NCBI GenBank assembly: GCA_017453065.1
Contig: JAFTKW010000005.1
Location: forward strand, 35,304 to 99,303
Length of the DNA stretch: 64,000 nt
Direction of reading: 5' to 3'
From: Lachnospiraceae bacterium
Lineage (GTDB): Bacteria; Bacillota; Clostridia; Lachnospirales; Lachnospiraceae
This document shows, in pieces, positions 3,111-19,891 of the stretch; within the stretch, counting starts at the first letter, position 1; the number at the start of each line of letters is the position of its first letter. The notes under the pieces are model-generated. The model saw nothing but the letters and a program-made list of their open reading frames with translations. It was not told the DNA's origin and ran no database searches. Position numbers and translations under genes: made by a program.

Positions 3111-3133
3111 TTGGGAGAATTTTGGGGGACGAA

Positions 3134-4141
3134 ATGGAAAACAAAAAAGTCACTATTGATGACATTGCAAGAGAACTGAATGTGTCCAAGACTACTGTAT
3201 CCAGAGCCATATCTGGCAAAGGAAGAATTAGTACAGCCACCAGAGAGCGAGTGATGGAATATATCCAGGCAGCCAATTACAAGCCAAATGTAATTGCCAA
3301 AGGCTTGGCGAAATCCAAAACCTACAATATCGGTTTTGTGATGCCAGGGGATTACAGCTTGGTGGATTTGCCTTTTTTCCAGGAGTGCATGCTGGGTGTA
3401 AGTGAGATTGCTTCCAGTTATGACTATGATGTACTTATTTCTATGGTCACTGAAAATGATATGGGGCAGCTCAAACGCCTTGTGGAGAATCACAAGGTAG
3501 ATGGTGTAATTCTTACTAGAACTTTGGTAAAGGATGGCCCTGCTGAATATCTGGAAGCCAATCAAGTTCCATTTGTTACAATTGGTACTTCTTTAAATAA
3601 AGAGATTGTTCAGATTGACAACGATCACCGCAGTGCTTGTAGAGAGTTGACTAGTATCCTGCTGATGCGCGGTATCCGCAAGTTGGCTTTGATTGGCGGA
3701 AACAAAACACATGTGGTTACGCAGAAGAGATTGCAAGGTTTTCAGGATGCTTTCTTAGAGCAGGGACTTAGTCCAGACAACAGCCTAATCTACATGGACG
3801 TAGAGCACAATGTCATGATTGAAAAGGTAGTAGAAGAGATGGTGGAACGCCAAGTGGAATGTGTCATCTGTATGGATGATTCTATTTGTACTCACGTACT
3901 CAATAAGTTGCGCAAAGAAAAAATCCGAGTTCCAGGGGATATCAAGGTTGCTTCTTTCTACAACAGTAGCTTGCTGGAAAGCAACATTCCTTCTATTACA
4001 TCTTTGAACTTCGATGTAAAAGAACTTGGAATGATCACCTGCAGAACTTTGTTGGATCGCATGGAAGGCAAAACGGTTCAGCGCCGTACACTGCTAGGAT
4101 ATGAAGTTTCCATGAAAGAATCCACACAGAATGTACTATAG
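3134..4141 (+). CDS. LacI-family transcriptional regulator of the galactan-type operon
   Basis: A 335-residue LacI/GalR regulator. The N-terminal helix-turn-helix and hinge helix are clear (VTIDDIARELNVSKTTVSRA, then YKPN at about residue 55). The rest is a periplasmic-binding-protein-like effector domain starting at YNIGFVMPG. ATG 3134 follows a GGGGGA ribosome site at 3124-3129; the TTG at 3122 overlaps that site and is unlikely to be the start. The gene lies just upstream of, and in the same direction as, a sugar-uptake operon, with TTGCGCAA repeats before and after it, so it is probably the local, autoregulated repressor, comparable in position to GanR of Bacillus. The effector sugar is not readable from the sequence. 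Confidence 0.93.
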   Translation: MENKKVTIDDIARELNVSKTTVSRAISGKGRISTATRERVMEYIQAANYKPNVIAKGLAKSKTYNIGFVMPGDYSLVDLPFFQECMLGVSEIASSYDYDVLISMVTENDMGQLKRLVENHKVDGVILTRTLVKDGPAEYLEANQVPFVTIGTSLNKEIVQIDNDHRSACRELTSILLMRGIRKLALIGGNKTHVVTQKRLQGFQDAFLEQGLSPDNSLIYMDVEHNVMIEKVVEEMVERQVECVICMDDSICTHVLNKLRKEKIRVPGDIKVASFYNSSLLESNIPSITSLNFDVKELGMITCRTLLDRMEGKTVQRRTLLGYEVSMKESTQNVL

Positions 4142-4219: not shown

Positions 4220-4236
4220 TTGCGCAACTAGCGCAA
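4220..4236. promoter_or_regulatory. Candidate LacI operator
   Basis: TTGCGCAA (4220-4227), then CTA and GCGCAA (4231-4236). It lies about 80 bases upstream of the promoter of the binding-protein gene, in the spacer behind the LacI gene. Confidence 0.5.
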
Positions 4237-4410: not shown

Positions 4411-5742
4411 ATGAAGAAAAAATTGTTAGCATTACTTATGGCGACAGCAATGGTATTCAGTTTCGCAGCTTGTGGCGGAAATGATACTCCAGCTGGAAAC
4501 GACACACCTGCATCCAACGATGGTGGACAGGTAAGCGAAGGCGGCGACGCTACAACAGATCCTGTACAGGCTTTGATCGCAGCTACAGAAGGACCAGTTA
4601 ATTTGGTTGTTTGGGCAGCTGAAGAAGATCAGGACATGGTTAAAGGATGGTGCGAAGATTTCGCAGCTCAGTATCCAGATGTAACATTCACATTTGAAGT
4701 TGGTGTTCAGTCTGAATCTACAGCAAAAGATACAGTACTTACAGACCCAGAAGCAGCAGCTGACGTTTACTCTTTCGCAGGTGACCAGCTCTCCGCTCTT
4801 GTAGCAGCAAATGCACTTCAGCCAGTATCTATTCACAAAGATGAAGTTGTAGCAGCTATGGGTGGTGAAAACTCTGGTGCTATCTTGGCAGCAACAATGG
4901 ACGGAACATTGTACGCTTACCCTGCAACAGCAGACAACGGCTACTTCATGTTCTACAACAAAGAGTACTTCTCTGAAGAAGATGTTAAGAGCCTTGACAA
5001 GATGATGGAAGTTGCAGCAGCAGCTGGCAAGAAGATCACATTGGAATACACATCTGGTTGGTATACATTGTCCTTCTTCGTAGGCGCTGGATTTGAACTT
5101 TCCAGAAACGCTGATGGTTCTACAACAATGAACTGGAACGCAACATCTGCTGATGGTATCGCAGGTGTAGACGTAGCTCAGGCTATGCTTGATATCGCTA
5201 AGAATCCTGGTTTCGTATCCCTTAAGGATGCTGAATTCGTAACAGGTGTTCAGGATGGTTCTATCATCGCTGGTGTAAACGGTACATGGAACGCAGCAGT
5301 TGCTGAAGGCGCTTGGGGCGAAAACTATGCAGCTACATGCCTTCCTACATACACAGTTGCTGGCAAACAGGTTCAGATGGCTTCCGTTGCTGGTTACAAG
5401 ATGTTCGGTGTAAACGCTTATTCTGAGAACGCTGGATGGGCTATGCTTCTTGCAGAGTACTTCACAGCTGAAGATCAGCAGATTGAAAGATTCGCTCTTC
5501 GTCAGGCTGGCCCTGCAAACGTAAAAGCTCAGGCTTCCGACGCTGTTAAAGCTAACCCAGCTATCGCAGCTTTGGCTATGCAGTCTCAGTACGCTATCCT
5601 TGATGGATGTGAAGGTGACAACTACTGGTCTACAGCAGAAACATTTGGTACAATCCTCGCAGCAGGTAACCCAGATGGTATCGCTCTCCAGGAACTCCTT
5701 GACAACTTTGTAGCAGGTGCTTCTCAGCCTACAGTACAGTAA
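4411..5742 (+). CDS. Sugar ABC transporter substrate-binding lipoprotein, MalE/GanS-like
   Basis: A 443-residue extracellular solute-binding protein of the MalE family (family 1). The first 21 residues are a lipoprotein signal peptide ending SFAAC, so Cys21 would carry the lipid anchor. A low-complexity Asn/Asp/Gly/Ser/Thr linker follows, and the ligand-binding domain starts near VNLVVWAAEEDQ. Sections such as DVYSFAGDQLSAL and FMFYNKEYFSEEDVKSL are typical of maltose- and galactan-type binding proteins. It is the first gene of an operon with two permeases and a GH53 galactanase, which points to beta-1,4-galacto-oligosaccharides as ligand (inference). Codon use is strongly biased (GCA, GCT, ACA, GGT), as expected for a very highly expressed gene. 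A hairpin follows the stop. Confidence 0.92.
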   Translation: MKKKLLALLMATAMVFSFAACGGNDTPAGNDTPASNDGGQVSEGGDATTDPVQALIAATEGPVNLVVWAAEEDQDMVKGWCEDFAAQYPDVTFTFEVGVQSESTAKDTVLTDPEAAADVYSFAGDQLSALVAANALQPVSIHKDEVVAAMGGENSGAILAATMDGTLYAYPATADNGYFMFYNKEYFSEEDVKSLDKMMEVAAAAGKKITLEYTSGWYTLSFFVGAGFELSRNADGSTTMNWNATSADGIAGVDVAQAMLDIAKNPGFVSLKDAEFVTGVQDGSIIAGVNGTWNAAVAEGAWGENYAATCLPTYTVAGKQVQMASVAGYKMFGVNAYSENAGWAMLLAEYFTAEDQQIERFALRQAGPANVKAQASDAVKANPAIAALAMQSQYAILDGCEGDNYWSTAETFGTILAAGNPDGIALQELLDNFVAGASQPTVQ

Positions 5743-5819: not shown

Positions 5820-5869
5820 CTCTTTATAGGTAAATGTCAACATTTTTTGGATTTGAAAGGGCGTGCCCA

Positions 5870-7297
5870 ATGAAAAAATTATTACAAACTATAGGAAGTT
5901 TCTTTGCGTCCTTTGGCACAGCTTTCGTAAAAGGCGATCTTTGGGTAAAAGGATCCTGCGTAATTATGGGCTTGGGCTATGCAGCAAGAGGACAGTTCGT
6001 TAAAGGCTTTCTGATGACTGCATTGGAAGCAGTATTTGCACTGTATATGGTACTTGTTGGGGTTCCATATCTGAGTAAGTTTGGTACACTTGGTACCGTT
6101 CAGTTAGAGAGAATATTCAACGTAGTTACTATGAAAAATGAAACCAATGACTACGACAACTCATTCTTGATTTTGCTCTTCGGAGTTATTTCTATTGTTA
6201 TTATCTTTGCCTTTGTAGCAATCTACATGGCAAATATCAAATCTGTATATGAATTACAGTTGCTCAAAGAAGCTGGCAAAAAGATCAACACCTTTAAAGA
6301 AGATTTGAAGATGTTGCTCAATGAAAAGTTCCACATTACTTTGCTTTTCTTGCCAGTGGGAGGAATTTTGCTATTCACCATTATTCCTCTGATTATTATG
6401 ATTGCGGTAGCATTTACCAACTACGATCAGTTGCACATGCCACCTGCAGCATTGTTTACATGGGTTGGATTGAAGAACTTTGTAAATCTGTTTACAACCA
6501 GTACCACAATCACCTTCGGTTATTCCTTTGGTAAGGTACTTACATGGACACTCATTTGGGCTTTCTTTGCAACCTTTACTACATATTTTGGAGGAATCCT
6601 TCTTGCGAAATTCCTCAACAACCCAAAGACAAAGTGGCCAAAGTTCTGGAGAACTCTTTTTGTAATCACAATCGCAGTTCCTCAGTTCGTATCCCTGCTT
6701 TTGGTAAGAAACTTCTTCTCTGATCAGGGTATCGTAAACAGTATTTGTAGCAGTATCGGTCTTACAGATCTGCTCACACAGCTAGGTCTCGTGAGAGAAG
6801 GTCTTGGATATATTCCATTCCTGACATCTCCAGGCTGGGCGAAATTTATGATTATTGTAATCAATATCTGGGTAGGTGTTCCTTATCAGATGCTGATTGC
6901 AACAGGCGTACTTATGAATATTCCTTCCGATTTGATGGAAAGTGCTCGTATCGATGGAGCAAACTCTTTCCAGATTTTCGTGAAGATTACAATGCCATAT
7001 ATGTTGTTCGTAACTGGACCAAGTTTGATTACCGGTTTCATCAACAACATCAACAACTTCAACGTAATATATCTGCTGACGCAGGATGTATTCACGACCA
7101 TGGATCAAAAACTGGCAAGCTCCAACGCCAAGGAAATCGACCTTTTGGTAACTTGGCTGTTTAGATTGACCAGTGAATATTACAACTACAAGATGGCTTC
7201 TGTAGTAGGCTGCGTTGTATTTGTAATCTGTTCCGTATTTACTCTGATTATGTTTAACCGCATGATTAAGGGAGATAAGGAGGAAAGTTTCCAATGA
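5870..7297 (+). CDS. Sugar ABC transporter permease, MalF/GanP-like
   Basis: A 475-residue integral membrane subunit of a carbohydrate importer. An N-terminal extension with two hydrophobic helices (about residues 28-75 and 105-140) precedes the core of six helices, as in MalF and GanP. The ATPase-docking EAA loop reads ESARIDGANSFQIFVKITMP. I prefer ATG 5870, which has GAAAGGG at 5855-5861 with suitable spacing; an in-frame ATG at 5834 has only a poor site. The stop overlaps the next permease start. No ATPase gene is present in this operon, so the nucleotide-binding subunit must be supplied from elsewhere. Confidence 0.92.
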   Translation: MKKLLQTIGSFFASFGTAFVKGDLWVKGSCVIMGLGYAARGQFVKGFLMTALEAVFALYMVLVGVPYLSKFGTLGTVQLERIFNVVTMKNETNDYDNSFLILLFGVISIVIIFAFVAIYMANIKSVYELQLLKEAGKKINTFKEDLKMLLNEKFHITLLFLPVGGILLFTIIPLIIMIAVAFTNYDQLHMPPAALFTWVGLKNFVNLFTTSTTITFGYSFGKVLTWTLIWAFFATFTTYFGGILLAKFLNNPKTKWPKFWRTLFVITIAVPQFVSLLLVRNFFSDQGIVNSICSSIGLTDLLTQLGLVREGLGYIPFLTSPGWAKFMIIVINIWVGVPYQMLIATGVLMNIPSDLMESARIDGANSFQIFVKITMPYMLFVTGPSLITGFINNINNFNVIYLLTQDVFTTMDQKLASSNAKEIDLLVTWLFRLTSEYYNYKMASVVGCVVFVICSVFTLIMFNRMIKGDKEESFQ

Positions 7298-8139
7298 TGA
7301 AGAGAGTCGTAAAACCTATTATTCGTCACGTGTTTATTGCCTTTATGGCAATTGTATGGTTGATTCCTATCGTTTGGCTTGTATGTACCTCCTTTAGTGC
7401 AAACCCAGGTATCAACATCAGCCATTTCTTCCCTGAGGAGTGGAGCTTGAACAACTACAAACTTTTGTTGTTCAGCGCAGATACTGTTGCGCAGTTCCCT
7501 AACTGGTTCAAAAACACATTTGTAATTGCTATCTTTACATGTATTATTTCTACATGTTTTACCCTGATGGTAGCGTATGCAACCAGCTGTATGAGATTTA
7601 AATCCAGAAAGTTCCTTATGAACGTAGGTATTATCCTTGGCATGTTCCCAGGTGTACTTGCTATGATTGCAGTGTACTTTGTACTTAAGACATTGGAACT
7701 TACCAATTCTCATATCGGTCTTATCATTGTTTATTCTGCAAGTTCAGGTTTGGGCTATTTAATTGCGAAGGGCTTCTTCGATACCATCTCTGTTTCTCTC
7801 AGAGAGGCAGCAAAGATTGAGGGTGCCAATGAATTTACCATCTTTACCAAGATTGTAGTGCCTTTGTCCAGACCAATCATCGTTTATACCGTTATCAACT
7901 CCTTCCTGGCTCCATGGATGGACTTCGTATATGCGAAACTTATTTTGAACTCTGGAATATCCAAAGACTGGACAGTTGCAATCGGTCTTTACAATATGCT
8001 TGAGAAAACTCTGATTAATACCTACTTTGCTAGATTCTGTGCAGGCGGTGTGATTGTAAGTATTCCAATCTCTATCCTGTTTATCATTATGCAGAAGTTC
8101 TATGTAGAAGGTATTACCGGTGGTGCAGTTAAGGGCTAA
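7294..8139 (+). CDS. Sugar ABC transporter permease, MalG/GanQ-like
   Basis: A 281-residue permease with about six membrane helices and the EAA loop EAAKIEGANEFTIFTKIVVP. It overlaps the MalF-like gene by four bases (ATGA), which indicates translational coupling; AAGGAGG at 7278-7284 is the ribosome site. Together with the preceding permease it forms the membrane channel for the lipoprotein receptor encoded at 4411. Length and topology are normal for MalG-type (CUT1) subunits. Confidence 0.93.
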   Translation: MMKRVVKPIIRHVFIAFMAIVWLIPIVWLVCTSFSANPGINISHFFPEEWSLNNYKLLLFSADTVAQFPNWFKNTFVIAIFTCIISTCFTLMVAYATSCMRFKSRKFLMNVGIILGMFPGVLAMIAVYFVLKTLELTNSHIGLIIVYSASSGLGYLIAKGFFDTISVSLREAAKIEGANEFTIFTKIVVPLSRPIIVYTVINSFLAPWMDFVYAKLILNSGISKDWTVAIGLYNMLEKTLINTYFARFCAGGVIVSIPISILFIIMQKFYVEGITGGAVKG

Positions 8140-8161
8140 ATTAGATTCATATAGGTTAGAA

Positions 8162-8223
8162 ACCGCAGGCTGGTAAATAACCCAGCCGGGCGGTCTAATA
8201 TAGAGGCTTAGCCGCATAGCGGC
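8162..8223 (+). other. Two hairpins in the 99-base gap after the permease genes
   Basis: The first is ACCGC-GGCTGG (8162-8173) pairing with CCAGCC-GCGGT (8182-8194), with small bulges. The second is GCCGC (8211-8215) with GCGGC (8219-8223). Neither has a T tract, so they look like mRNA processing or stability elements rather than terminators. The second ends just before the ribosome site of the next gene. Confidence 0.5.
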
Positions 8224-8238
8224 AGAATGTGAGGAAAA

Positions 8239-10092
8239 ATGGAAAAGTTTGTTGTTAATATTATCCATCGTCCAGAGATGGTACCAGAATATGCTGAAAA
8301 AGTAACCGGACATGGAAAAGAAGAAAATATCGGAAGAAAAGCACTTCTTACAGAGTCTTTAGACATTTTTAAATTCCAGCAGGAAACTGCTCACAAAAAT
8401 GGTCTCAAGACTACCATTCAGATGACTTATGCAAGTTTGTTCAACGATGAAGCAGTAGCACTTGCAAAAGAGCATCATGAAAAATATGGCGATGAAATTG
8501 CACTTTCTCTGTTGGGACTTCCTTGTACAGAGTTCCGTGAGAAATACAAAACCAAAGATTTCTGTATCTGGATGTTCTCCATGGAGGACAAGAAATCTAT
8601 CGTGGATGACGTATTTGGTAAATTCCATGACATCTTTGGATTCTATCCAGAATCCACTGGTTCCTACTATATGGATGCAGAATTGATCAACTACATCAAA
8701 GAGACCTATCCAAGCGTGAAATGTGCAGTTGCTACTTGCTGGGAGGAAGGCCCTAAGGCTTACCACACCTGTAACAACTCTTGGTACACCTTTATGGATG
8801 GTGGCCCATGGAACCCATGGATTCCATCCAAAGCTAACGTACATGCACCAGCTGCAAACGAGGCAGAAGATAGTGGTATCGTAGCAATCCCACACCTTTC
8901 CAGAGACTTGCTTGCATGCTACGACGGAAATGGTTCCAACTTTGGTACCCATCCACAGAACGTACTCCGCGGTATGATTTATGATACCAGCACATGGGAG
9001 TACCCATATTTGTACAACCTCATTGACCAGTATCGTCATTTGGAAAAATATAACAATGGTTATGCTTACAACATGATGTTTGTAGGACCAGGCTGGCTGA
9101 ATAAGATGGGACGTTGGGAGGCTCCATACGAACTTCTCAAGAAGTCTTATGAAGATGGCATGGCTTACTATGGACAGCTCAAGAAGGACGGCCAGTTAGA
9201 TGATATGACTATGGCTGAGTTTGCAGACTACTATCGTCAGAAAAAGACCTACACAGAGCCAGAGTGTGCTCTTTGGAGAGATATTCTTTACGGCTCTGAC
9301 AAGCAGCTTTTCTGGTACTGTGATCCTTACATGAGAGCATGTGTAAACATGGATCAGGGTGGTGCTATTGTTGACCTTCGTCCTTATGCTGCAAAGCTTG
9401 AGTGGCCAGTAGGTATCGGCACCCCACACGTAACAGATGCATCTTACCCATTCCTGATTCAGGAAAAATATCGTGCAGGTTACTTCACACACTATGCTGG
9501 TGAAGGTACTGTTCGCAGTGCAAAACTGACTTACAATGGTGAAGAAGTAGATCTTTGCCTGTGTAGAACTAGCGCCGCATTCTCTGAAGAAGTGATGGAA
9601 GAGGGCAAAAAGAAACGTATTCTGACACTGAAACCAGTAGATATCGAATTCGCTGACTTGACAGTGAAACTTCAGACTAGAGTAATCTTTGCAGAAGGCA
9701 GCTCTGATATCCAGATTGAAAGAACAATCCTTGAGATGAGCGATCCAAATGCAAAAGTAGAAATTAACGAGTACATTGTAGCATGCTATGGTACTACCGA
9801 ATACTCTGAGGATATGACTTCTCTTACACTTGGATGTGTGAAGGGTCAGGAGCAGGAGACTATTAGCTATGAATATAAATGTAGAGATGCTCAGATTGCT
9901 GGTGCAGACAGCGTATATGCTATTGTACCACCAATCAAGACCAGAGTAACCATGACAGCTAGCAGCCAGGAGGCCACAGGTTATGTCAAAGAGGGATATG
10001 CATTCTCCCCAATGTTTACATTAGGTTACACCAAGTCTCTATCTGATAAGGAGGTATTTTCAACATGGCTCAAGCTACAAAGGGAAAATTAA
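8239..10092 (+). CDS. Unrecognised 617-residue cytoplasmic protein in the galactan-type operon (possible glycan-active enzyme)
   Basis: No signal peptide or membrane segment is visible, so it should be cytoplasmic. The N-terminal 300 or so residues alternate strand- and helix-like stretches reminiscent of polysaccharide-deacetylase or GH57/GH38-type barrels: TTIQMTYASLFND, then YGDEIALSLLG, FYPESTGSYYMDAELINYI, GPWNPWIPSK, IPHLSRDLLACYDG. The C-terminal part (from about residue 430) is strand-rich, like an accessory beta-sandwich. From memory it resembles Bacteroidetes proteins catalogued as DUF3863/DUF3864; I cannot verify this. It lies between the permeases and a GH53 galactanase, where Bacillus gan operons encode the GH42 beta-galactosidase. 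A role in splitting imported galacto-oligosaccharides is inference. GAGGAAAA precedes ATG 8239. Confidence 0.75.
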   Translation: MEKFVVNIIHRPEMVPEYAEKVTGHGKEENIGRKALLTESLDIFKFQQETAHKNGLKTTIQMTYASLFNDEAVALAKEHHEKYGDEIALSLLGLPCTEFREKYKTKDFCIWMFSMEDKKSIVDDVFGKFHDIFGFYPESTGSYYMDAELINYIKETYPSVKCAVATCWEEGPKAYHTCNNSWYTFMDGGPWNPWIPSKANVHAPAANEAEDSGIVAIPHLSRDLLACYDGNGSNFGTHPQNVLRGMIYDTSTWEYPYLYNLIDQYRHLEKYNNGYAYNMMFVGPGWLNKMGRWEAPYELLKKSYEDGMAYYGQLKKDGQLDDMTMAEFADYYRQKKTYTEPECALWRDILYGSDKQLFWYCDPYMRACVNMDQGGAIVDLRPYAAKLEWPVGIGTPHVTDASYPFLIQEKYRAGYFTHYAGEGTVRSAKLTYNGEEVDLCLCRTSAAFSEEVMEEGKKKRILTLKPVDIEFADLTVKLQTRVIFAEGSSDIQIERTILEMSDPNAKVEINEYIVACYGTTEYSEDMTSLTLGCVKGQEQETISYEYKCRDAQIAGADSVYAIVPPIKTRVTMTASSQEATGYVKEGYAFSPMFTLGYTKSLSDKEVFSTWLKLQREN

Positions 10093-10280
10093 ATTTTAGA
10101 TGTCCTTCCTGCTTTATGAGAGATTTGGACATTGATATGTTTTTTGACAAAGAAAAGGGCGAATATTACTGCCTTCGTTGCCAGTATACAGGCACAGAAA
10201 AAGATGTACTTGAAAAGAACGAAATGGCTCGTTTCCGTTATCGTGCTATGAGTAAAAGATTTGAAAGCTTTGACCTCTAA
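10065..10280 (+). CDS. Small zinc-ribbon protein (71 aa), translationally coupled
   Basis: A 71-residue protein with two CxxC knuckles (FRCPSCFM near residue 11 and YYCLRCQYTG near residue 34), so it probably binds one zinc ion. It overlaps the end of the 617-residue gene by 28 bases in another frame. A strong AAGGAGG around 10048-10054 lies inside that gene, 10-12 bases before ATG 10065, so this is a real gene and is coupled to it. The rest is charged and helical (KDVLEKNEMARFRYRAMSKR). Function is unknown; similar small ribbon proteins are common in Lachnospiraceae. Confidence 0.8.
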   Translation: MAQATKGKLNFRCPSCFMRDLDIDMFFDKEKGEYYCLRCQYTGTEKDVLEKNEMARFRYRAMSKRFESFDL

Positions 10281-10307: not shown

Positions 10308-11414
10308 ATGAAAGATTTTATTAAAGGTATGGATATTTCTACCTTGCTTGAGGTAGAAAAGTGCGGCGGCAAATTTTTTGACCACGGCAAGGAGGGGGAT
10401 GTCCTTGACATCCTTAAGTCCTACGGCGTCAATGCGGTGCGTTTGCGTCTTTGGAATGATCCTTATACAGCAGATGGAAGGCCTTATGGGGCAGGAACCA
10501 ACGACCTGCCAACCACTATTGCACTGGCAAAGAGAGCTTTGGACAAGGGTATGGACTTTTTGCTGGATTTCCACTACAGCGACTTCTGGACAGACCCAGG
10601 AAAGCAGTTTATTCCAAAAGCGTGGAAAGGCTATAGCGTAGAACAGCTGGAACAGGCAATGTATGATTTTACCAAGATTGTACTGGAAAAGCTTAGGAGC
10701 GAGGGAGTATTCCCAACCATGGTACAGGTAGGAAACGAACTCTCCAATGGTATGCTTTGGCCTTACGGTCAAGTGCCAGAGTACGACAATCTTGCAAAGT
10801 TTGTCAGTGCTGGTATTAGGGGCGTGCGCAGCGTAGACAAAGAGATTCCTATCATGATTCATTTGGACAACGGTGGAAACAATGAACTTTATCGCAGATG
10901 GTTCGATGAATACATAAAGAGAGGAGAGGACTTCCAAGTGATTGGTCTGTCTTACTATCCTTTCTGGCATGGAAGCCTTAAGAGTCTTCAGGACAATATG
11001 CATGACATTGCTCTTCGATATGGAAAAGAGTTGATTGTAGCAGAGGTTTCTATGGGATATACCATGGAAGATTATGCAGAATATGAGAAACTATCTCCAT
11101 CCGAGCGTAAAGGATATGCAACCAGACAGGCTCTTATCGAAAAGATTGAATATCCTATGACCAAGCAGGGACAGTGCGATTTCATGGAAGATTTCCTGAA
11201 TCGAGTAAAGAGTGTTCCAAATGGGCTTGGCAAAGGATTCTATTATTGGGAGCCAGCATGGATTCCTGTACCAGGAAGCGGCTGGGCGACTCCTGAATCA
11301 CTTGAGTATATACAGGACAAAGGCCCTTGTGGAAATGAATGGGCCAATCAGGCATTGTTTGACTATGACGGTCATGCGTTGCCAGCCTTAGAAGTGATTC
11401 GCGATTTTAAATAA
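10308..11414 (+). CDS. ganB: GH53 arabinogalactan endo-beta-1,4-galactanase (intracellular form)
   Basis: A 368-residue glycoside hydrolase family 53 enzyme, which cleaves beta-1,4-galactan backbones such as pectic type I arabinogalactan side chains. Family hallmarks are FIKGMDISTLLEVE at the N terminus, VNAVRLRLWNDPY, DFHYSDFWTDPGKQ, the acid/base Glu144 in VQVGNELSNGMLWP and the nucleophile Glu246 in LIVAEVSMGYT. The C-terminal part contains GFYYWEPAWIPV. There is no signal peptide: the catalytic domain starts at residue 5 and the start has a ribosome site (GGACGGAG). The enzyme should therefore act on oligosaccharides brought in by the ABC transporter of the same operon, unlike secreted Bacillus GanB. 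Confidence 0.93.
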   Translation: MKDFIKGMDISTLLEVEKCGGKFFDHGKEGDVLDILKSYGVNAVRLRLWNDPYTADGRPYGAGTNDLPTTIALAKRALDKGMDFLLDFHYSDFWTDPGKQFIPKAWKGYSVEQLEQAMYDFTKIVLEKLRSEGVFPTMVQVGNELSNGMLWPYGQVPEYDNLAKFVSAGIRGVRSVDKEIPIMIHLDNGGNNELYRRWFDEYIKRGEDFQVIGLSYYPFWHGSLKSLQDNMHDIALRYGKELIVAEVSMGYTMEDYAEYEKLSPSERKGYATRQALIEKIEYPMTKQGQCDFMEDFLNRVKSVPNGLGKGFYYWEPAWIPVPGSGWATPESLEYIQDKGPCGNEWANQALFDYDGHALPALEVIRDFK

Positions 11415-11494: not shown

Positions 11495-11529
11495 AAAGAA
11501 CGTAGACTCTATGAGAGACTACGTTCTTT
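11495..11529. terminator. Terminator between convergent GH53 and LacI genes
   Basis: A perfect 11-bp stem AAAGAACGTAG (11495-11505) / CTACGTTCTTT (11519-11529), followed by a T-rich run on the + strand. The right arm and loop encode the last codons and stop of the LacI gene on the minus strand, so the element is shared. Confidence 0.8.
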
Positions 11530-12516
11530 TGCTTTTGCTGTAGATTTGCGATTAATAAATTGAGCTCTAAGTGTAGTGCGGCTGATAGATACTTTGTTGA
11601 GCAAGGAATTCAAAGTATAGTAGCCACTTTTGCCAAGTTCAGTTCTATCCTGTCTGACCGTTGTCAGAGGAGGAGTGAGATGGGAAGAAATTGGCAGATC
11701 ATCGAATCCGATGACACTGATATCTTCTGGTACCTTGAAACCGCGGTTCTGACATTCAGCGATAACACCCATGGCAATCAAGTCGTTACCGCACATGATG
11801 GCGGTAGCACCTTCGGACAAAAATCCTGGCACATGGTATTTGGCACTGTCTGCCACATAGAAACCATAGGCAAGCAGGGAGTCTGGAGTTTCCAAACCAT
11901 GCTCATGCATACAGTTTACAAAGGCTTCCTGTCTTTGGTCAGACACCAAGGAGTTTAAGGAACCATTCAAGAAGGCAATCTTTTTGTGGCCAAGTGCAAC
12001 CAAGTGCTCTACACCATATTCGATGCCCTCGAAGTTGTCTGTGCCTACGGCACCTACAAGTGGATTGTGTTTAATATAGTTGTCAAAAAGTACGGTAGGG
12101 ATCTTGGTTGTGCTAAGCTGAGAGAGCCAGTCGTCATGTAGGGCAAAGCCTACCAGAAAGGCACCAGAGTAGCCATTTTTTAACATATATGTATCGTATT
12201 TCTCATTTGCCTGAAAGGCTGGAGTGACTGGTTGAATTACAACCTCCCAATTGTCCCTAAATGCAGCCTGTTTGAATCCAAGGATAATTTCGTAACCAAA
12301 CTGGTTGGCGGTTTCGTAATCCATGTTTTCTATAAAAAGAACCAATTTCTTGTGTTCCTGCTTTTGCATCTTCTTGGTTTTGTAACCCATTTCTACGGCA
12401 GTATCTAAAACTACCTGTCTGAGTTCTTCACTGATGTCGGGTGCTCCGTTGAGTCCTTTGGATACGGTACTCACAGATATTCCCAATTTGTTTGCAATGT
12501 CTTTGATGGTTGCCAT
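11509..12516 (-). CDS. LacI-family transcriptional regulator of the maltodextrin operon
   Basis: A 335-residue LacI/GalR regulator. The DNA-binding head is MATIKDIANKLGISVSTVSK followed by GLNGAPDISEELRQVVLDTAVEMGYK, and the effector domain starts near KLVLFIENMD, with GYDD-like VIGFDDLPISS near the C terminus. The ribosome site GAGGAAGAC stands directly before the start. It is divergent from malQ and the maltose-type operon, so it most likely controls that operon, as MalR does in other Firmicutes. Its own promoter (minus strand, 12598-12626) has a half-site related to the palindrome at 12817 close by, which suggests autoregulation. Effector unknown; maltose or maltodextrins are expected. Confidence 0.93.
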   Translation of the reverse strand: MATIKDIANKLGISVSTVSKGLNGAPDISEELRQVVLDTAVEMGYKTKKMQKQEHKKLVLFIENMDYETANQFGYEIILGFKQAAFRDNWEVVIQPVTPAFQANEKYDTYMLKNGYSGAFLVGFALHDDWLSQLSTTKIPTVLFDNYIKHNPLVGAVGTDNFEGIEYGVEHLVALGHKKIAFLNGSLNSLVSDQRQEAFVNCMHEHGLETPDSLLAYGFYVADSAKYHVPGFLSEGATAIMCGNDLIAMGVIAECQNRGFKVPEDISVIGFDDLPISSHLTPPLTTVRQDRTELGKSGYYTLNSLLNKVSISRTTLRAQFINRKSTAKAKERSLS

Positions 12517-12597
12517 GTCTTCCTCTTTTCCCTCAAAATAAGCGTATCCAGACGATTGTCAAAAGATACGCTAATCCCTCGAAAATTCACTAAAAAT

Positions 12598-12626
12598 AGT
12601 ATAAAATGAATTCCCGAATGATGCAA
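12598..12626 (-). promoter_or_regulatory. Promoter of the second LacI gene (minus strand)
   Basis: On the minus strand, TTGCAT (complement of 12621-12626) and TATACT (complement of 12598-12603) are spaced by exactly 17 bases. A TCGAAAATTCA element near 12577 lies at the expected start region. Confidence 0.65.
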
Positions 12627-12699
12627 GAACATATTGAAAAAGTGCTGAAATACTAAAAAAGAACGAAAACATATGGTTTGGTGAAAGTGTACAAAAAAG

Positions 12700-12707
12700 T
12701 TGCGCAA
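12700..12707. promoter_or_regulatory. TTGCGCAA octamer in the malQ/LacI divergent region
   Basis: The same perfect octamer found at the galactan-type operon (2958, 4220, 4352). Its presence here suggests that the first LacI protein may also bind in front of the maltodextrin operon. Confidence 0.4.
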
Positions 12708-12752
12708 AAAATATTAAAAACGTTGAAAGTGAAGATAAAACAGTGCAAATGG

Positions 12753-12781
12753 TTGACAAAGTGCGCATAAAAATGTTAAAA
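12753..12781 (+). promoter_or_regulatory. Candidate promoter of malQ operon
   Basis: A perfect TTGACA at 12753-12758; the best -10 at 17-base spacing is a poor TTAAAA (12776-12781). It could need an activator or have a different -10. Confidence 0.4.
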
Positions 12782-12816
12782 CATAAGCAGATACGAAAGT
12801 TTACGAAAATTTTGTA

Positions 12817-12829
12817 TCGAAAGTTTCGA
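12817..12829. promoter_or_regulatory. Candidate MalR-type operator, perfect palindrome
   Basis: TCGAAA-G-TTTCGA is a perfect 13-base inverted repeat; a degenerate relative, ACGAAAGTTTACGA, lies at 12793-12806. The layout resembles LacI-family operators and it lies between the candidate promoter and malQ. The divergently encoded LacI protein is the likely ligand. Confidence 0.55.
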
Positions 12830-12924
12830 AGCAAAATAAGCAGCGAACATTGAAGAAACAAAGCATCCAAGCGTTTTAAATGCGAAGGAACAGTTTTTCG
12901 AGATGTTTAGAAAGGACGGACAAA

Positions 12925-14415
12925 GTGTCTGAGAAGAGCTTCATGAGAGGTGCTGGAATATTACTTTCAGTAACCAGTTTACCATCTGAATACGGAATTG
13001 GAACATTGGGCGATGAAGCATACAACTTTGTAGACCTACTGGTAGACCTCAGACAGAGATATTGGCAGGTGCTTCCACTTGGACCTACAAGTTTTGGCGA
13101 TAGCCCATACCAATCTTTTTCCGCATTCGCTGGCAACCCTTATCTCATTGATTTGAACGATTTGATTCGTGACCAGTTGTTGACTAAAGCAGAGGTTCGA
13201 GAGTTCAACTGGGGAAGTGATGACCAGGATATAGATTACGCAGTGATTTTTGAAAACCGTTTCCGCGTACTGCAGCAGGCATTTGAAAGATTTGATGTAA
13301 AAGCCACACAGTTTGAAGCCTTCTGTCAGGAACAGAAAGAATGGTTAGATGATTATTCTTTTTTCATGGCGTTGAAAACGTTTTCTGACAACAAGGAATG
13401 GCTCCTCTGGGAACCAGGCCTTAGAGATAGAGAGCCAAAGACCATGGACGAGTATCGTCAGAAACTTTCCAAAGAGATTTCTTTCTGGAAGTTCTGTCAA
13501 TATAAATTCTTCGAACAGTGGAATAGATTACACAGATATGCCAACAGCAGAGGCATTCAAATCATTGGAGATATTCCTTTGTACTTGGCGCTGGATAGTG
13601 CAGATGTTTGGGCCAACAGAGAAGACTTCTTGTTAGGAGCTGACGGAAGACCAAATGTTGTTGCAGGATGTCCACCAGATGCTTTTTCCGATTTGGGACA
13701 GAAATGGGGCAACCCAATTTACAACTGGGCCAAGATGGAAAAAGAAGATTTCCCTTGGTGGCGCAAGCGCATGATTGCCAATGCAAAATTGTACGATGTT
13801 ATTCGTATAGACCACTTTATCGGCGTAGTGAAATACTATAGCATCCCAGCTGGTGATGAAGATGCCAGAGGTGGTAAATGGAACAAGGGACCAGGCAAGA
13901 AACTGACAGATGCCATTGAGGCGTCTGTAGGAAGCAGCAAGGTGATTGCTGAAGACTTGGGTGTTTCCGTTCCGGGTGTAAAGAAACTCATGCAAAAAAC
14001 AGGCTGGCCTGGCATGAAGATTTTACTTTTTGCATTTGATGGCAATACTGCCCATGAGTACTTACCTCACAACTATACAGATACTAACATTGCTGTATAC
14101 GCTGGAACTCATGACAATGATACTATTGTAGGTTACTTCAGAGATCGCACAGAATATGAATTGGCATTTTTGTACGAATATCTGGATATCAATAGTAAGG
14201 ACGAAATCCCTGATGCCATCATCAGGCTGGCTTACTCCTCCATTGCAGATATCGTAATTATGCAGATGCAGGATATTTTGCACTTGGGCAATGAAGCCCG
14301 CATGAACCTTCCATCCACCATTGGAACCAACTGGAGATGGAGATACACCAAAGACGGTTTGTCCGAGGAGCGCAGAACTTGGCTTAGAACCATGGCGACT
14401 ATCTATCGCAGATAG
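12925..14415 (+). CDS. malQ: 4-alpha-glucanotransferase (amylomaltase), GH77
   Basis: A protein of about 496 residues that transfers alpha-1,4-glucan segments between maltodextrins in the cytoplasm. It shows GAGILLSVTSLPSEYGIGTLG near the start and the family sections RYWQVLPLGPTSFGDSPYQS, IIGDIPLYLALDSADVW (nucleophile region further on in VIRIDHFIG), KVIAEDLGV with the catalytic Glu, and TGWPGMKIL and YAGTHDNDT. The compact, about 500-residue bacterial/plastid form fits. I placed the start at GTG 12925, which has AAGGACGGA 4-5 bases upstream; ATG 12880 lacks a site, and ATG 12943 is also possible. It heads an operon with a maltose-type importer and an alpha-amylase. Confidence 0.93.
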   Translation: MSEKSFMRGAGILLSVTSLPSEYGIGTLGDEAYNFVDLLVDLRQRYWQVLPLGPTSFGDSPYQSFSAFAGNPYLIDLNDLIRDQLLTKAEVREFNWGSDDQDIDYAVIFENRFRVLQQAFERFDVKATQFEAFCQEQKEWLDDYSFFMALKTFSDNKEWLLWEPGLRDREPKTMDEYRQKLSKEISFWKFCQYKFFEQWNRLHRYANSRGIQIIGDIPLYLALDSADVWANREDFLLGADGRPNVVAGCPPDAFSDLGQKWGNPIYNWAKMEKEDFPWWRKRMIANAKLYDVIRIDHFIGVVKYYSIPAGDEDARGGKWNKGPGKKLTDAIEASVGSSKVIAEDLGVSVPGVKKLMQKTGWPGMKILLFAFDGNTAHEYLPHNYTDTNIAVYAGTHDNDTIVGYFRDRTEYELAFLYEYLDINSKDEIPDAIIRLAYSSIADIVIMQMQDILHLGNEARMNLPSTIGTNWRWRYTKDGLSEERRTWLRTMATIYRR

Positions 14416-14535
14416 AAGGCTGACCGAAAAAACTGGGGCTAGGACCTAAAACAATTAACGGTATGAAGTCCGAAAGGATTTTATATAAAAGAACCTATAA
14501 TGAAAAAGGGTAAAACAAAAAAAGGAGAATTAGTT

Positions 14536-15840
14536 ATGAAAAAGAAACTCGTAGCATTACTTATGGCAGTTGCCATGGTAGCAACAGTTGTTGGTTGCGG
14601 AAGCACACCAACAGACACACCTTCTACAGGCGAAAGCAAAGTAGAAGACAGCAAAGTTGAAGAAAACAAAGAAGACGGCAAAGAAGAAGTTGAAGTAAGA
14701 ACAGTAGACCTTCTTGTTTGGTCTCCATCTGAAGACCAGGCTGATGACAAGGGTAACTGGTTGCAGACAATGTGTGAGCAGTTCGACGAAGCTCATCCAG
14801 AATGGGAAATCAACTTCACATACGGCGTATGTGCAGAAGGCGATGCTAAGTCCACAGTAACTCAGGATATCGAAGCAGCAGCTGACGTTTACATGTTCGC
14901 TAACGACAACGTAAATGATCTTCTTGCAGCTGGCGCAATCGCTAGACTTGGTGGTTCTACACTTGACTATGTAAACGAAAACATTCCTGCATCTTTGGTT
15001 AACTCTGTAACTGTTAACGATGCTGTATATGGAATTCCTTTCACATCTAACACATGGTTCATGTACTACAACAAGAGCATCTTCACAGAAGAAGACGTTA
15101 AGAACCTTGAAACAATGCTTGCAAAAGGCAAAGTTGCATTCCCTCTTAACAACTCTTGGTATTTCGCTTCCTTCTATGCAGGAAACGGATGTACATTGTT
15201 TGGTAACGGTACAGATGAAGCAGCTGGCATCCAGTTCGGCGGCGAAAATGCTGTAGAAGTTACAAACTACCTTATCGACCTTGTTAAGAATCCTAACTTC
15301 GTTCACGATGTAAACGGTGCAGGTATGGCTGGTCTTAAAGACGGTTCTATCGGTGCTATCTTCTCCGGTAACTGGGATTATCAGAACGTAGTAGACGCTA
15401 TCGGTGCTGAAAACGTAGGCGCTTGCCAGCTTCCTACTTACACACTTAACGGTGTTGAGAAACAGCTTAAAGCATTCGCTGGTTCTAAAGCAATCGGTGT
15501 TAACCCTAACTGCCCAGATCAGGATGTAGCTATCGCTCTTGCAGCATGGCTTGGTGGACAGGAAGGTCAGCAGCTTCACTTTGAACTTCGTGGAACAATT
15601 CCAGCAAACACAACAGTTGCAGCTTCTGATGCGGTTAAGAACAACGTTGTAGCTACAGCAGAATCTTCTACAATCGCTAACACATCTATCATGCAGCCAA
15701 TCGTTGGTGCTATGGGTAACTACTGGTCCCCAGCTACAAGCATGGCTGACGCTATCTTCTCTGGCGAAGTTACACATGACAACGCAGCTGAAAAGACAGC
15801 AGCTATGAACGATGCTATGAACGGCAGCGTAGTTGAATAA
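14536..15840 (+). CDS. Maltodextrin ABC transporter substrate-binding lipoprotein, MalE-like
   Basis: A 434-residue family-1 solute-binding protein. The signal peptide ends ATVVGC, with Cys21 as lipidation site, followed by an acidic Ser/Glu/Lys-rich linker. The binding domain begins RTVDLLVWSPSEDQ and contains DVYMFANDNVNDL, FMYYNKSIFTEEDVKNL and GAIFSGNWDYQNVVDAIG. It is clearly a paralogue of the protein encoded at 4411. ATG 14536 has AAAGGAGAA at good spacing; an ATG 12 codons earlier does not. Its place between malQ and an alpha-amylase indicates maltose or maltodextrin binding. Codon use suggests very high expression, and a strong hairpin follows. Confidence 0.92.
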   Translation: MKKKLVALLMAVAMVATVVGCGSTPTDTPSTGESKVEDSKVEENKEDGKEEVEVRTVDLLVWSPSEDQADDKGNWLQTMCEQFDEAHPEWEINFTYGVCAEGDAKSTVTQDIEAAADVYMFANDNVNDLLAAGAIARLGGSTLDYVNENIPASLVNSVTVNDAVYGIPFTSNTWFMYYNKSIFTEEDVKNLETMLAKGKVAFPLNNSWYFASFYAGNGCTLFGNGTDEAAGIQFGGENAVEVTNYLIDLVKNPNFVHDVNGAGMAGLKDGSIGAIFSGNWDYQNVVDAIGAENVGACQLPTYTLNGVEKQLKAFAGSKAIGVNPNCPDQDVAIALAAWLGGQEGQQLHFELRGTIPANTTVAASDAVKNNVVATAESSTIANTSIMQPIVGAMGNYWSPATSMADAIFSGEVTHDNAAEKTAAMNDAMNGSVVE

Positions 15841-15875
15841 TCTAGACTTTTTTAGTAAAGAATAATACAATGAAA

Positions 15876-15911
15876 GTATGTTCCGGTGGCTTTAGGGCCA
15901 CTGGAGCATAC
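15876..15911 (+). terminator. Strong hairpin (attenuator) after the malE-like gene
   Basis: A fully paired 15-bp stem (15876-15890 with 15897-15911, two G-U pairs) and 6-base loop, followed by ATTTTATG. It has the same position as the hairpin at 5793, between binding-protein and permease genes. Confidence 0.7.
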
Positions 15912-15970
15912 ATTTTATGTAGGGAATTAACATAACCCTAGTAAGCCTTTGGTAAAGGAGGATATCGCAA

Positions 15971-17359
15971 ATGAGCGAGACAGGAAGCGATAAGAAAGTT
16001 AAGAAATTGAAGAGAGTCAGTGCTGAGTTTTCACTCATCAAAGCATTGGTAAAAGGTGACTTTGCCACAAGACTTACCTTTTTAATCTGCGGGTTTGGAA
16101 ATATTTTTCACAAACAGATCACAAAGGGTATCCTGTTCTTGTTGGTAGAAATAGGATACATCTATTATATGATTAAATCTGGTGTGGAAAGCATTAAGAT
16201 GCTACCATCTCTCGGATGGCTCAAGCAGGAAGAGGTGTGGAATGATGCAAAGGGTGTCTATGAGTATACTGCAGGACATCAGTCCATCCAGATTTTGCTT
16301 TACGGTGTTATTGCTATAGCACTTACTATTTTGTTCGTTATTTACTGGAGAGCTTGTATCAAGAGTGCTTACAAGGCTCAGTGTTTACATAAAGAAGGTA
16401 AACATGTAAATACATTTGTTGACGATTTAAAAGCTTTAAGACATGAGAATTTGCACAAAACCCTGATGACGATTCCACTTACAGGTATTTTTGCATTTAC
16501 AGTGCTTCCACTGATTTTCATGATTTGTATGGCCTTCACAAACTACAGTAAGGTAGATGATCATCTTGTGTTGTTTGATTGGGTAGGTCTTGAGAACTTT
16601 GCAAAGGTTCTCAGTTTTTCTGATAAAATTGGACAGACTTTCTGGGGCGTACTTGGCTGGACTTTGGTTTGGGCAGTATTTGCTACCGGACTTAACTATA
16701 TACTTGGTATGATTCTGGCTATCGTTATCAATAGAAGGGGAACAAAATTCAAAGCCTTCTGGCGTTGTTGTTTCATGGTTTCTATTGCGATTCCACAGTT
16801 CGTATCCTTACTTATTGTTCGTTCCATGTTCAGTGCAGATGGAACAATCAATATGATGCTTAAGGAGTGGGGCTGGATTGAACAGTCCTTGCCATTCTTT
16901 ACAAACGAAACATGGTCTCGTGTAATGGTAATCATTATCAACCTTTGGGTTGGTATTCCATATACCATGATTCAGGCGACAGGTATCTTGCAGAATATCC
17001 CAGCAGAACTTTATGAATCTGCAAGGGTAGACGGTGCGAATGCATTTGTAACTTTCTTCAAGATTACACTTCCTTACATGATGTTCGTAATGACACCATA
17101 CCTGATTACACAGTTTACTGGTAACGTAAATAACTTCAACGTTATCTACCTTCTGTCAGGTGGTAACCCGACTCCGGTTGGTTCTACCGCAGGTAAGACG
17201 GACCTTTTGGTTACATGGCTCTACAAACTAACCGTTGACCAGCAGTACTACAACTTAGGTGCGGTTATTGGTATCTTGACATTCATCGTGCTTGCTGTTG
17301 TAGCACTTGTGACTTACAGAAATACAAATTCTTACAAAGATGAGGAGGGATTCCAATAA
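15971..17359 (+). CDS. Maltodextrin ABC transporter permease, MalF-like
   Basis: A 462-residue permease. A cytoplasmic start is followed by extra N-terminal helices and then the six-helix core, as in MalF; the EAA loop is ESARVDGANAFVTFFKITLP. AAAGGAGG stands at 15954-15961, nine bases before ATG 15971. Its stop shares one base with the start of the next permease. It is the sequence and positional counterpart of the permease at 5870, so the two operons probably arose by duplication. Confidence 0.93.
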   Translation: MSETGSDKKVKKLKRVSAEFSLIKALVKGDFATRLTFLICGFGNIFHKQITKGILFLLVEIGYIYYMIKSGVESIKMLPSLGWLKQEEVWNDAKGVYEYTAGHQSIQILLYGVIAIALTILFVIYWRACIKSAYKAQCLHKEGKHVNTFVDDLKALRHENLHKTLMTIPLTGIFAFTVLPLIFMICMAFTNYSKVDDHLVLFDWVGLENFAKVLSFSDKIGQTFWGVLGWTLVWAVFATGLNYILGMILAIVINRRGTKFKAFWRCCFMVSIAIPQFVSLLIVRSMFSADGTINMMLKEWGWIEQSLPFFTNETWSRVMVIIINLWVGIPYTMIQATGILQNIPAELYESARVDGANAFVTFFKITLPYMMFVMTPYLITQFTGNVNNFNVIYLLSGGNPTPVGSTAGKTDLLVTWLYKLTVDQQYYNLGAVIGILTFIVLAVVALVTYRNTNSYKDEEGFQ

Positions 17360-18228
17360 TGAAGAATATATCATCATCTGCAAAAGTGAGACGCTTTTTG
17401 GGTAACAGCATTGTGCACATTTTGTTGGCAGCCCTTGCTATTGTTTGGCTATTTCCTGTATTTTGGGTAGTGATGAAGAGTTTTTCTACCGATATTGGTA
17501 TTTATTCCAAGTCATTCTTCCCAGAAGAATTTACTTTGGCTAACTACATGAGATTGTTTACTGATACAACAGTACTTAACTTCCCACAGATGTTTAAGAA
17601 CACATTTATCGTAGCGATTTTTAGTTGCTTGGTTTCTACCTTCATGGTACTTGCAGTATCCTTCTGTATGTCCAGACTGCGTTTTAAGATGCGTAAGAAC
17701 TATATGAACATGGCTATGATTCTTACCCTGTTCCCTGGATTTATGTCCATGGTAGCTGTTTACTACATCTTGAAGTCTCTTGGACTTTCCGAAGGTTCAA
17801 TGATTCGTGTAGCACTTGTTATGGTTTATTCCGGTGGTGCGGGTATTGGCTTCTATGTTGCCAAAGGCTTCTTTGATACGATTCCTAAGGCACTTGACGA
17901 GGCTGCACTTATTGATGGTGCAACTAGATGGCAGATTTTTACCAAGATTACTATGCCACTCAGTAAGCCAATCATCGTTTATACTGTTCTTACTTCCTTT
18001 ATGGGACCATGGACAGACTTTATCTTTGCGAAGGTTATTTGCAGAGCAAATGCAGATTACTTTACAGTTTCAGTTGGATTGTGGAGAATGCTTGAAAAAG
18101 AGTATATCGCGAAGTGGTTTACTTCTTTTGCGGCAGGAGCGGTTCTTATTTCCATTCCTATTTCCATCTTGTTCATTGTGACTCAGAAGTTCTACGCAGA
18201 TGGAATGAGCGGAGCTGTAAAGGGCTAA
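17359..18228 (+). CDS. Maltodextrin ABC transporter permease, MalG-like
   Basis: A 289-residue permease with about six membrane helices and the EAA loop EAALIDGATRWQIFTKITMP. It overlaps the MalF-like gene by one base (TAATG). It is paralogous to the protein at 7294. The alpha-amylase gene follows after 13 bases. No ATPase gene is in the operon. Confidence 0.93.
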   Translation: MKNISSSAKVRRFLGNSIVHILLAALAIVWLFPVFWVVMKSFSTDIGIYSKSFFPEEFTLANYMRLFTDTTVLNFPQMFKNTFIVAIFSCLVSTFMVLAVSFCMSRLRFKMRKNYMNMAMILTLFPGFMSMVAVYYILKSLGLSEGSMIRVALVMVYSGGAGIGFYVAKGFFDTIPKALDEAALIDGATRWQIFTKITMPLSKPIIVYTVLTSFMGPWTDFIFAKVICRANADYFTVSVGLWRMLEKEYIAKWFTSFAAGAVLISIPISILFIVTQKFYADGMSGAVKG

Positions 18229-18241
18229 AGGAGATATTTAT

Positions 18242-19891
18242 ATGAAAAAGAGACTGTTAGCAGTCCTTTGTATTCTAGCCATGGTTTTTACAACCATGGC
18301 TGGTTGTACATCAAAGGATAAGGCTTTAACCGAGAACATTATTGATGACAATTACCGTACTTTTTACGAGGTGTTTGTCTATTCCTTTTTCGATAGCAAT
18401 GGAGATGGAATCGGCGATCTTCAGGGTTTGACCCAAAAACTAGATTACATATATGACAATGATCCTTCTACATCTACAGACTTAGGATGTAACGGTATCT
18501 GGCTGATGCCAATTATGCCATCTACTACCTATCACAAGTATGATGTAATTGATTACATGGATATTGATACTCAGTATGGCTCTATGGCTGACTTTGATGC
18601 TTTTATGGCAGAGTGTCAGGCAAGAGATATTCATGTACTTATCGATTTGGTTATCAACCATACTTCCACAGAGCATGAGTGGTTTCAACAGGCTTGCGAT
18701 TATTTAAGAACCATAGGCAATGCGGCTCCAGATGAGGCAGATTGCAAATATTTTGGCTATTACAATTTCTCTACTACCAAGGCCAGTGGAGTTTGGTATC
18801 AGGTGCCAGGTACAGATTGGTACTATGAAGCTCCTTTTTGGAGTGGTATGCCAGACCTTAATTTGTACAATGAAAATGTAAGAGCAGAGATTGAAGCGAT
18901 CACTCAGTTTTGGTTTGACAAAGGCGTGGCAGGTTTCAGATTGGATGCTGCCAAGGAATATCAATCTGGCGCAAATCAGGCCAACGTGGAGATTCTGACT
19001 TGGTTTAACGACATGGTAAAGGCGCAGAAGGAAGATGCGTACATTGTAGCAGAAGTATGGTTTAATGACGGCAGCTATGATGAGTATTATGCAAGCGGAA
19101 TTGACAGCTGCTTTGATTTCCAGTTCGCAAGTCAGGACGGTGTCATCGCGCAGGTGTTAAATGGCAAAGCAGATACAGGTGCCGTTGGATATGCCAAGAA
19201 ATGTGAAAAAATTCAGGAGCAGTTTGGCCAGTACAATCCAAACTATATCAATGCTCCGTTCTATGCAAACCATGATATGGGTAGAAGTGCTGGATATTAT
19301 GCGGGAGAGAATAGTATTGCAAAGACCAAGATGGGGCATGCAATGAATCTTTTGATGAGTGGTAGTGCTTTCCTTTATTACGGCGAAGAACTTGGTATGA
19401 AGGGCGCAGGCAAGGACGAAAACAAACGTCTTGGTATGATGTGGTACGAGGACACAAATGCAGAAGGCATGTGTGATGGACCAAAGGATGCAGATTCTGT
19501 AAAACAGAAATTTGACAGTCTGGAACTTCAGGTGCAGGATGAGACTTCTGTTTACAATTTTGTAAAACAGGTGCTTACAGTAAGAAATGCCTTCCCAGCT
19601 ATTGCAAGAGGCCAAGTGGAGTATATCGAAGAGGCTTCCAATGTACAGCTTGGCGTGATGCGTAAGACCTATGAAAAGGAAGAAGTGATTCTTGTTTTCA
19701 ACCTCTCAGCAGAAGATAGCGTGTTAGACTGCGCGGCATTGGCTGACACATTGACTATCGGAGGTAAATCCCTAAGCAAGGTAGACCCAAAAGCGACTCT
19801 TTACACAGGAGAGACCTTGATGAGTGTTGAAGGTGATAACATCACTGTTCCAGCGTACTCAGTACTTGTGTATGAGATTACAAATAAATAA
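18242..19891 (+). CDS. GH13 alpha-amylase-type lipoprotein
   Basis: A 549-residue extracellular glycoside hydrolase of family 13. The signal peptide ends TTMAGC (lipidated Cys22). The barrel starts FYEVFVYSFFDSNGDGIGDL, with a calcium-site-like Asp/Asn loop. Conserved regions are DLVINHTS (135-142), GFRLDAAKEY with nucleophile Asp235, VAEVW with acid/base Glu271 and NHD with Asp345. A short C-terminal beta domain follows. The missing large accessory modules suggest action on maltodextrins or soluble starch at the cell surface. As last gene of the malQ-malEFG operon it would produce oligosaccharides for the importer. Exact specificity (alpha-amylase, neopullulanase or glucosidase) cannot be fixed. 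Confidence 0.9.
   Translation: MKKRLLAVLCILAMVFTTMAGCTSKDKALTENIIDDNYRTFYEVFVYSFFDSNGDGIGDLQGLTQKLDYIYDNDPSTSTDLGCNGIWLMPIMPSTTYHKYDVIDYMDIDTQYGSMADFDAFMAECQARDIHVLIDLVINHTSTEHEWFQQACDYLRTIGNAAPDEADCKYFGYYNFSTTKASGVWYQVPGTDWYYEAPFWSGMPDLNLYNENVRAEIEAITQFWFDKGVAGFRLDAAKEYQSGANQANVEILTWFNDMVKAQKEDAYIVAEVWFNDGSYDEYYASGIDSCFDFQFASQDGVIAQVLNGKADTGAVGYAKKCEKIQEQFGQYNPNYINAPFYANHDMGRSAGYYAGENSIAKTKMGHAMNLLMSGSAFLYYGEELGMKGAGKDENKRLGMMWYEDTNAEGMCDGPKDADSVKQKFDSLELQVQDETSVYNFVKQVLTVRNAFPAIARGQVEYIEEASNVQLGVMRKTYEKEEVILVFNLSAEDSVLDCAALADTLTIGGKSLSKVDPKATLYTGETLMSVEGDNITVPAYSVLVYEITNK

Follow-up and report, generated by a model that had tools for sequence, protein, structure and literature searches.

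Which reaction is carried out by a protein that is encoded within a galactan operon and resembles no described family? This question is raised by the gene U617, located at 8239..10092 (+) in a stretch of 64,000 nucleotides from a Lachnospiraceae bacterium (assembly GCA_017453065.1, contig JAFTKW010000005.1; the whole stretch is termed the window). The open reading frame (ORF) starts with ATG and, according to the ORF call and the fold model, encodes a putative cytoplasmic glycosidase or phosphorylase of 617 aa. It is followed by ZnR (10065..10280, +), which shares its first 28 nt with the end of U617 and encodes a zinc-ribbon protein of 71 aa with the pattern CxxC-x19-CxxC. The constant pairing of the two genes is the most interesting feature of the locus. 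The analysis supports U617 as an enzyme-like two-domain protein outside the described Pfam and NCBIfam families, residing in an operon for galactan or galacto-oligosaccharides. We give an even chance to the explanation that U617 and ZnR together act as a cytoplasmic two-component carbohydrate-active enzyme (CAZyme) that cleaves oligosaccharides containing galactose without duplicating the work of GH53, GH42 or GH2.

Conservation of the U617-ZnR gene pair

The gene pair is very strongly conserved. In 116 of the 118 loci with both genes (the window included; not all loci are independent genomes) the ZnR start and the U617 end overlap by exactly 28 nt, the exceptions being L122, in which U617 is split (+148 nt), and L111, which holds a 39% homologue (31 nt). 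Beyond the overlap, codon positions 1, 2 and 3 of ZnR differ at 0.20, 0.12 and 0.51 per site (117 sequences), and this concentration of the variation at the third position shows that ZnR is translated. A search with ZnR alone (E up to 0.001) recovered it from 54 of 397 sampled family genomes, namely the same 53 that carry U617 and G427, which carries a 39% U617 homologue, and in none of the 343 others. The four cysteines, arranged in two CxxC knuckles, are invariant and identify a zinc ribbon; no Pfam family was matched by ZnR, and among its weak structural matches several are zinc ribbons. A chance ORF was rejected as an explanation for ZnR on the basis of the fixed overlap, the co-distribution with U617 and the third-position variation. 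The constant overlap and the shared pattern of presence and absence point to a complex or a strict functional dependence, and the arrangement of the gene pair suggests that U617 and ZnR may form a complex. One decayed copy (L149:7425-9512) retains a C-terminal fragment of U617, a LacI gene in pieces and an intact ZnR open frame.

Family status and distribution of U617

U617 matched no family in Pfam and none in NCBIfam at E up to 1, so that identity with a named GH family was rejected, and no paper on U617, ZnR or DUF3863 was recognised in a PubMed Central (PMC) search, whose scope did not extend to subscription papers and CAZy. Relatives were found in at least 577 stretches of species-representative genomes, the best 80 at 81-88% identity over nearly the full length, and U617 is therefore a real gene. 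These 80 loci, being the best of the at least 577, are biased to close relatives, and some of their species may recur among the genomes behind L082-L122. Most of the 80 are labelled as Lachnospiraceae or its genera and some bear broader or other labels (Clostridiales, Muribaculaceae, Alistipes), which may reflect impure metagenome bins. Of 397 sampled genomes from the own family, 56 gave a match, comprising 53 with U617 proper, G427, and G400 and G448, which contain only distant barrels of about 28-30% identity. In a phylum-wide sample of 398 genomes the own genome was the sole match, and searches of plasmids and of viral contigs yielded no U617 match. U617 is a real, widespread orphan protein.

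Homologues outside the core family were also encountered. In L111 the U617 homologue (37-39%) at 6952-8667 (-) and a 35% ZnR at 6755-6979 (-) sit together with a GH29-type gene (PF01120) and oxidoreductase-like genes (judged by eye), and hence the pair is not confined to galactan loci. L112, L113, L114 and L115 carry distant barrels of the U617 superfamily that form another uncharacterised family; the barrel of L115 stands beside a GH127 gene and that of L112 near genes resembling rhamnose metabolism by eye. Unlike U617, these four distant barrels have no ZnR nearby in the fetched DNA, one of them lying on a short contig.

Predicted fold and candidate active site

Structure prediction and fold search gave a (beta/alpha)7 barrel at residues 1-338, followed by a galactose-mutarotase-like sandwich at residues 340-617, with a mean predicted local distance difference test (pLDDT) value of 70.8. 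An earlier reading of the DNA alone (the sequence-only reading) had described a barrel-like N-terminal and a strand-rich C-terminal part, in agreement with this model; the search against Pfam profiles that it had proposed left U617 without a family, and its suggestion of DUF3863 proved right at the level of a distant relative, recognised by profile and by fold. The GH57 4-alpha-glucanotransferase 1K1X covers both U617 domains (root-mean-square deviation, rmsd, 17.5 over 435), and on the GH57 side the barrel also matches 9JLU and 3N8T. The best fold matches of the barrel are the polysaccharide-deacetylase-family proteins 3QBU, 1Z7A, 3RXZ and 3S6O. Identity with a galactose mutarotase was rejected, since the entire barrel is extra and the GalM signature segments were not seen by eye in the C-terminal domain.

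Comparison of 12 U617 sequences with the 39% homologue gave 82 invariant polar residues, including H10, D146, C167, E169, E170, H176, H219, R222, D223 and H238, and N7, T59, E86, D146, C167, D223 and D348 are invariant in all 17 sequences, distant barrels included. In GH57 the nucleophile is a Glu on strand 4 and the acid/base an Asp on strand 7. Asp146, located in the segment expected as the end of barrel strand 4, the place of the GH57 nucleophile, would be the best candidate for a catalytic residue. Asp223, His219, His176, Glu169/Glu170 and His10 are likely to belong to the putative active site. All these assignments are provisional because the loops concerned were modelled with low confidence.

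Galactan-gene context

A GH53 gene was detected in 45 of the 53 U617 genomes and in 48 of the 344 others (Fisher odds ratio 34.7, p 4e-25, the latter not being a strict probability because the genomes are related). G400, G448 and G427 were counted among the 344, the 53 include some genomes with U617 in pieces (G426, G758, G601, G740), and of the 93 GH53 genomes at E 0.001, 89 are above the cut-off. GH53 is present in 73 of the 80 loci; it immediately follows ZnR in 50 and immediately precedes U617 in 18. ORF clustering missed it in L012, L014, L030 and L057, in all four of which tblastn detects it. A member of the ORF cluster of the LacI-family regulator LacI1 occurs in 53 of the 80 loci. Further neighbours are GH42 (two clusters, 19 and 11 loci), LacZ-type GH2 (14 loci), and galactokinase and GalT (4 loci each). 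GH42 or GH2 is found in 40 of the 80 loci, always at most 6 kb and in 23 at most 1.5 kb from U617, a count based on ORF clusters, with Pfam tests on three representatives; the flanks are full in 52 loci and short in 28.

The own assembly (84.7% complete, 5.06% contamination) holds one GH42 (396 bits) and five GH2-family hits, one at 358 bits, on other contigs, and its sole match to the GH35 model is the same GH42 gene. The claim of the sequence-only reading that GH42, GH2 and GH35 are missing here is thus correct for the contig of the window and does not extend to the assembly.

Proposed function and alternatives

In the proposed mechanism the ATP-binding cassette (ABC) importer would take up galactan or galacto-oligosaccharides and GH53 would trim them inside the cell. 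U617 would supply the barrel and the C-terminal super-sandwich, the architecture of the GH57 4-alpha-glucanotransferase, and ZnR would be a small structural or regulatory subunit from the overlapping gene. U617-ZnR would most likely cleave, either hydrolytically or phosphorolytically, a linkage or end that contains galactose and is not handled by GH53 and the GH42/GH2 beta-galactosidases. The analysis establishes the gene pair, its conservation, its galactan context and, at the level of models, the two folds; the activity, the substrate, the linkage, the catalytic residues, the role of ZnR and the complex are inferred. With somewhat less than even confidence, U617-ZnR is further proposed as the founding member of a new CAZyme family, an obligate two-protein glycosidase/phosphorylase acting on oligosaccharides that contain galactose. 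Its GH57-like barrel would work only with its own 71-aa zinc-ribbon subunit, at a stoichiometry fixed by the 28-nt overlap. To our knowledge, it would be unusual for a glycoside-active barrel to have a zinc-ribbon subunit. An obligate enzyme of this kind would represent an unrecognised step of pectic galactan utilization in gut Lachnospiraceae, and a two-component enzyme would add a step of pectin side-chain breakdown missing from the Pfam and NCBIfam libraries searched.

The sequence-only reading had cast U617 as the possible exo-beta-galactosidase of the operon in place of GH42/GH2, as would fit its position between importer and GH53, the lack of GH42, GH2 and GH35 matches on the contig of the window, and 33 of the 80 loci in which the ORF clusters of the fetched DNA include GH53 and lack both GH42 and GH2 (with full flanks in 52 of the 80). 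However, U617 matches no galactosidase family (PF02449, PF02836/PF02837 and PF01301 for GH42, GH2 and GH35, at E up to 1), and GH42 and GH2 occur elsewhere in the assembly, although not every GH2 is a beta-galactosidase, and near U617 in half of the 80 loci. Their presence in the own assembly and in related loci disfavours a stand-in and favours a complementary step; the stand-in role is a weak reading, not the best one, and we consider it unlikely. Co-occurrence with GH53 and true beta-galactosidases also leaves room for debranching, and U617-ZnR might be a deacetylase- or esterase-like member of the same superfamily that strips imported galacto-oligosaccharides of a decoration, such as O-acetyl or some other substituent, in line with the top fold matches of the barrel. 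NodB deacetylases have an Asp-His-His metal triad with two His in a motif, but the strand-3 segment EIALSLLG of U617, judged by eye, is without His, by which identity with a NodB-type polysaccharide deacetylase was rejected, and a mutarotase-like C-terminal domain is typical of glycosidases, not of deacetylases; decoration removal is therefore judged quite improbable. It is very improbable that U617, instead of being an enzyme, binds sugars or serves in regulation with ZnR as effector, as the invariant polar residues and the enzyme-like two-domain architecture speak against it and a LacI regulator is already present in most of the loci.

Several observations weigh against a galactose-cleaving U617-ZnR enzyme. 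The model is weakest (pLDDT <50) at 164-192, 219-251 and 270-284, all of them conserved and expected to make up the active site; the strand 4 that precedes D146 is a mere bridge at 139, with a mean pLDDT of 67 for block 141-150, and D146 aligns with a Ser in 3LM3. The strand-7 acid expected from GH57 is not evident, with no invariant acid in FVGPGWLN (model strand 278-282), and a profile of the distant barrels, which alone were compared, gave no match to a GH57 alignment. Among the relatives found none has a known activity, 3LM3 itself being uncharacterised. A GH53 match is absent in 8 of the 53 U617 genomes, and 7 of the 80 loci are without GH53 in the fetched DNA. Around U617 these GH53-less genomes have GH42 and GH2 (G454), a GH42 homologue (G760), GH2 (G767; G740, near a decayed U617), a melibiase-like GH (G545), GH20 (G655) or a large protein with FIVAR, Big_2 and F5/8 domains (G412), and nothing was identified around it in G733. 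In L059 the pair (L059:7941-10015) lies amid unrelated genes, the sole recognised sugar gene nearby being a GH77 homologue on the opposite strand, at a distance of about 3 kb. From these genomes and loci it follows that galactan may not be the sole substrate.

Neighbouring genes in the window

ORF calls and Pfam matches bore out the 617-aa ORF and the gene order of the sequence-only reading, which had listed the zinc ribbon and had overlooked its constant partnership with U617. These genes are all on the plus strand: LacI1 (3122..4141; PF00356/PF13377/PF00532), the sugar-binding lipoprotein of the ABC importer (4411..5742; PF13416), permease 1 (5834..7297; PF00528), permease 2 (7294..8139; PF00528), U617, ZnR and the GH53 endo-beta-1,4-galactanase of 368 aa (10308..11414; PF07745, E 8.9e-120, residues 5-363). 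The best NCBIfam match of the binding protein is GanS (NF053763, E 5.8e-18), at 64.8 bits far under the cut-off of 700. No signal peptide was visible by eye at the start of U617 or GH53, and the GH53 domain begins at residue 5, leaving no room for one.

Two TTGCGCAA-type sites at 4220 and 4352, between the LacI and binding-protein genes, are possible LacI operators. Of 44 regions behind LacI1 homologues, 14 contain ATTGCGCA, other 8-mers being equally frequent in these related sequences. A maltodextrin-like cluster adjoins the galactan operon at 11509-19891 and contains a divergent LacI, GH77, a binding protein, two permeases and GH13 (LacI, GH77 and GH13 by Pfam, transporter genes by eye).

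Comparison with known systems

One close counterpart is DUF3863, represented by PDB 3LM3 (BDI_3119 of Parabacteroides distasonis, titled 'putative glycoside hydrolase/deacetylase'), a distant relative of U617. A homologous barrel was detected by profile and fold, which places U617 in the wider DUF3863 superfamily. U617 differs in being below the reach of the model, with no match at the gathering cut-off of PF12979, and at the Asp146/Ser position; when the DUF3863 model was applied to the 17 alignment members, one distant barrel was reached at E 0.039 (13.2 bits against a cut-off of 27). For Roseburia hominis and R. faecis, PMC5320581 describes an arabinogalactan locus with three GH53 genes, two of them with signal peptides; its passages on this locus mention no U617- or ZnR-like protein.

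The GH57 4-alpha-glucanotransferase 1K1X and the GH57 amylopullulanases share with U617 a (beta/alpha)7 barrel followed by a super-sandwich. U617 was not matched by PF03065 (GH57) in the Pfam search, its modelled domain arrangement departs from that of GH57, as the rmsd indicates, the acid/base Asp is not evident, and GH57 acts on alpha-glucan whereas the context of U617 is galactan. We know of no zinc-ribbon partner of GH57.

In the Bacillus ganSPQAB operon GanA is a GH42 enzyme and GanB a GH53 galactanase under LacI control. The operon described here shares with it LacI control, a GanS-like binding protein, two permeases and GH53. Unlike in Bacillus, GH53 has no signal peptide, and galactan is therefore probably trimmed inside the cell, and the place of GanA is occupied by U617-ZnR.
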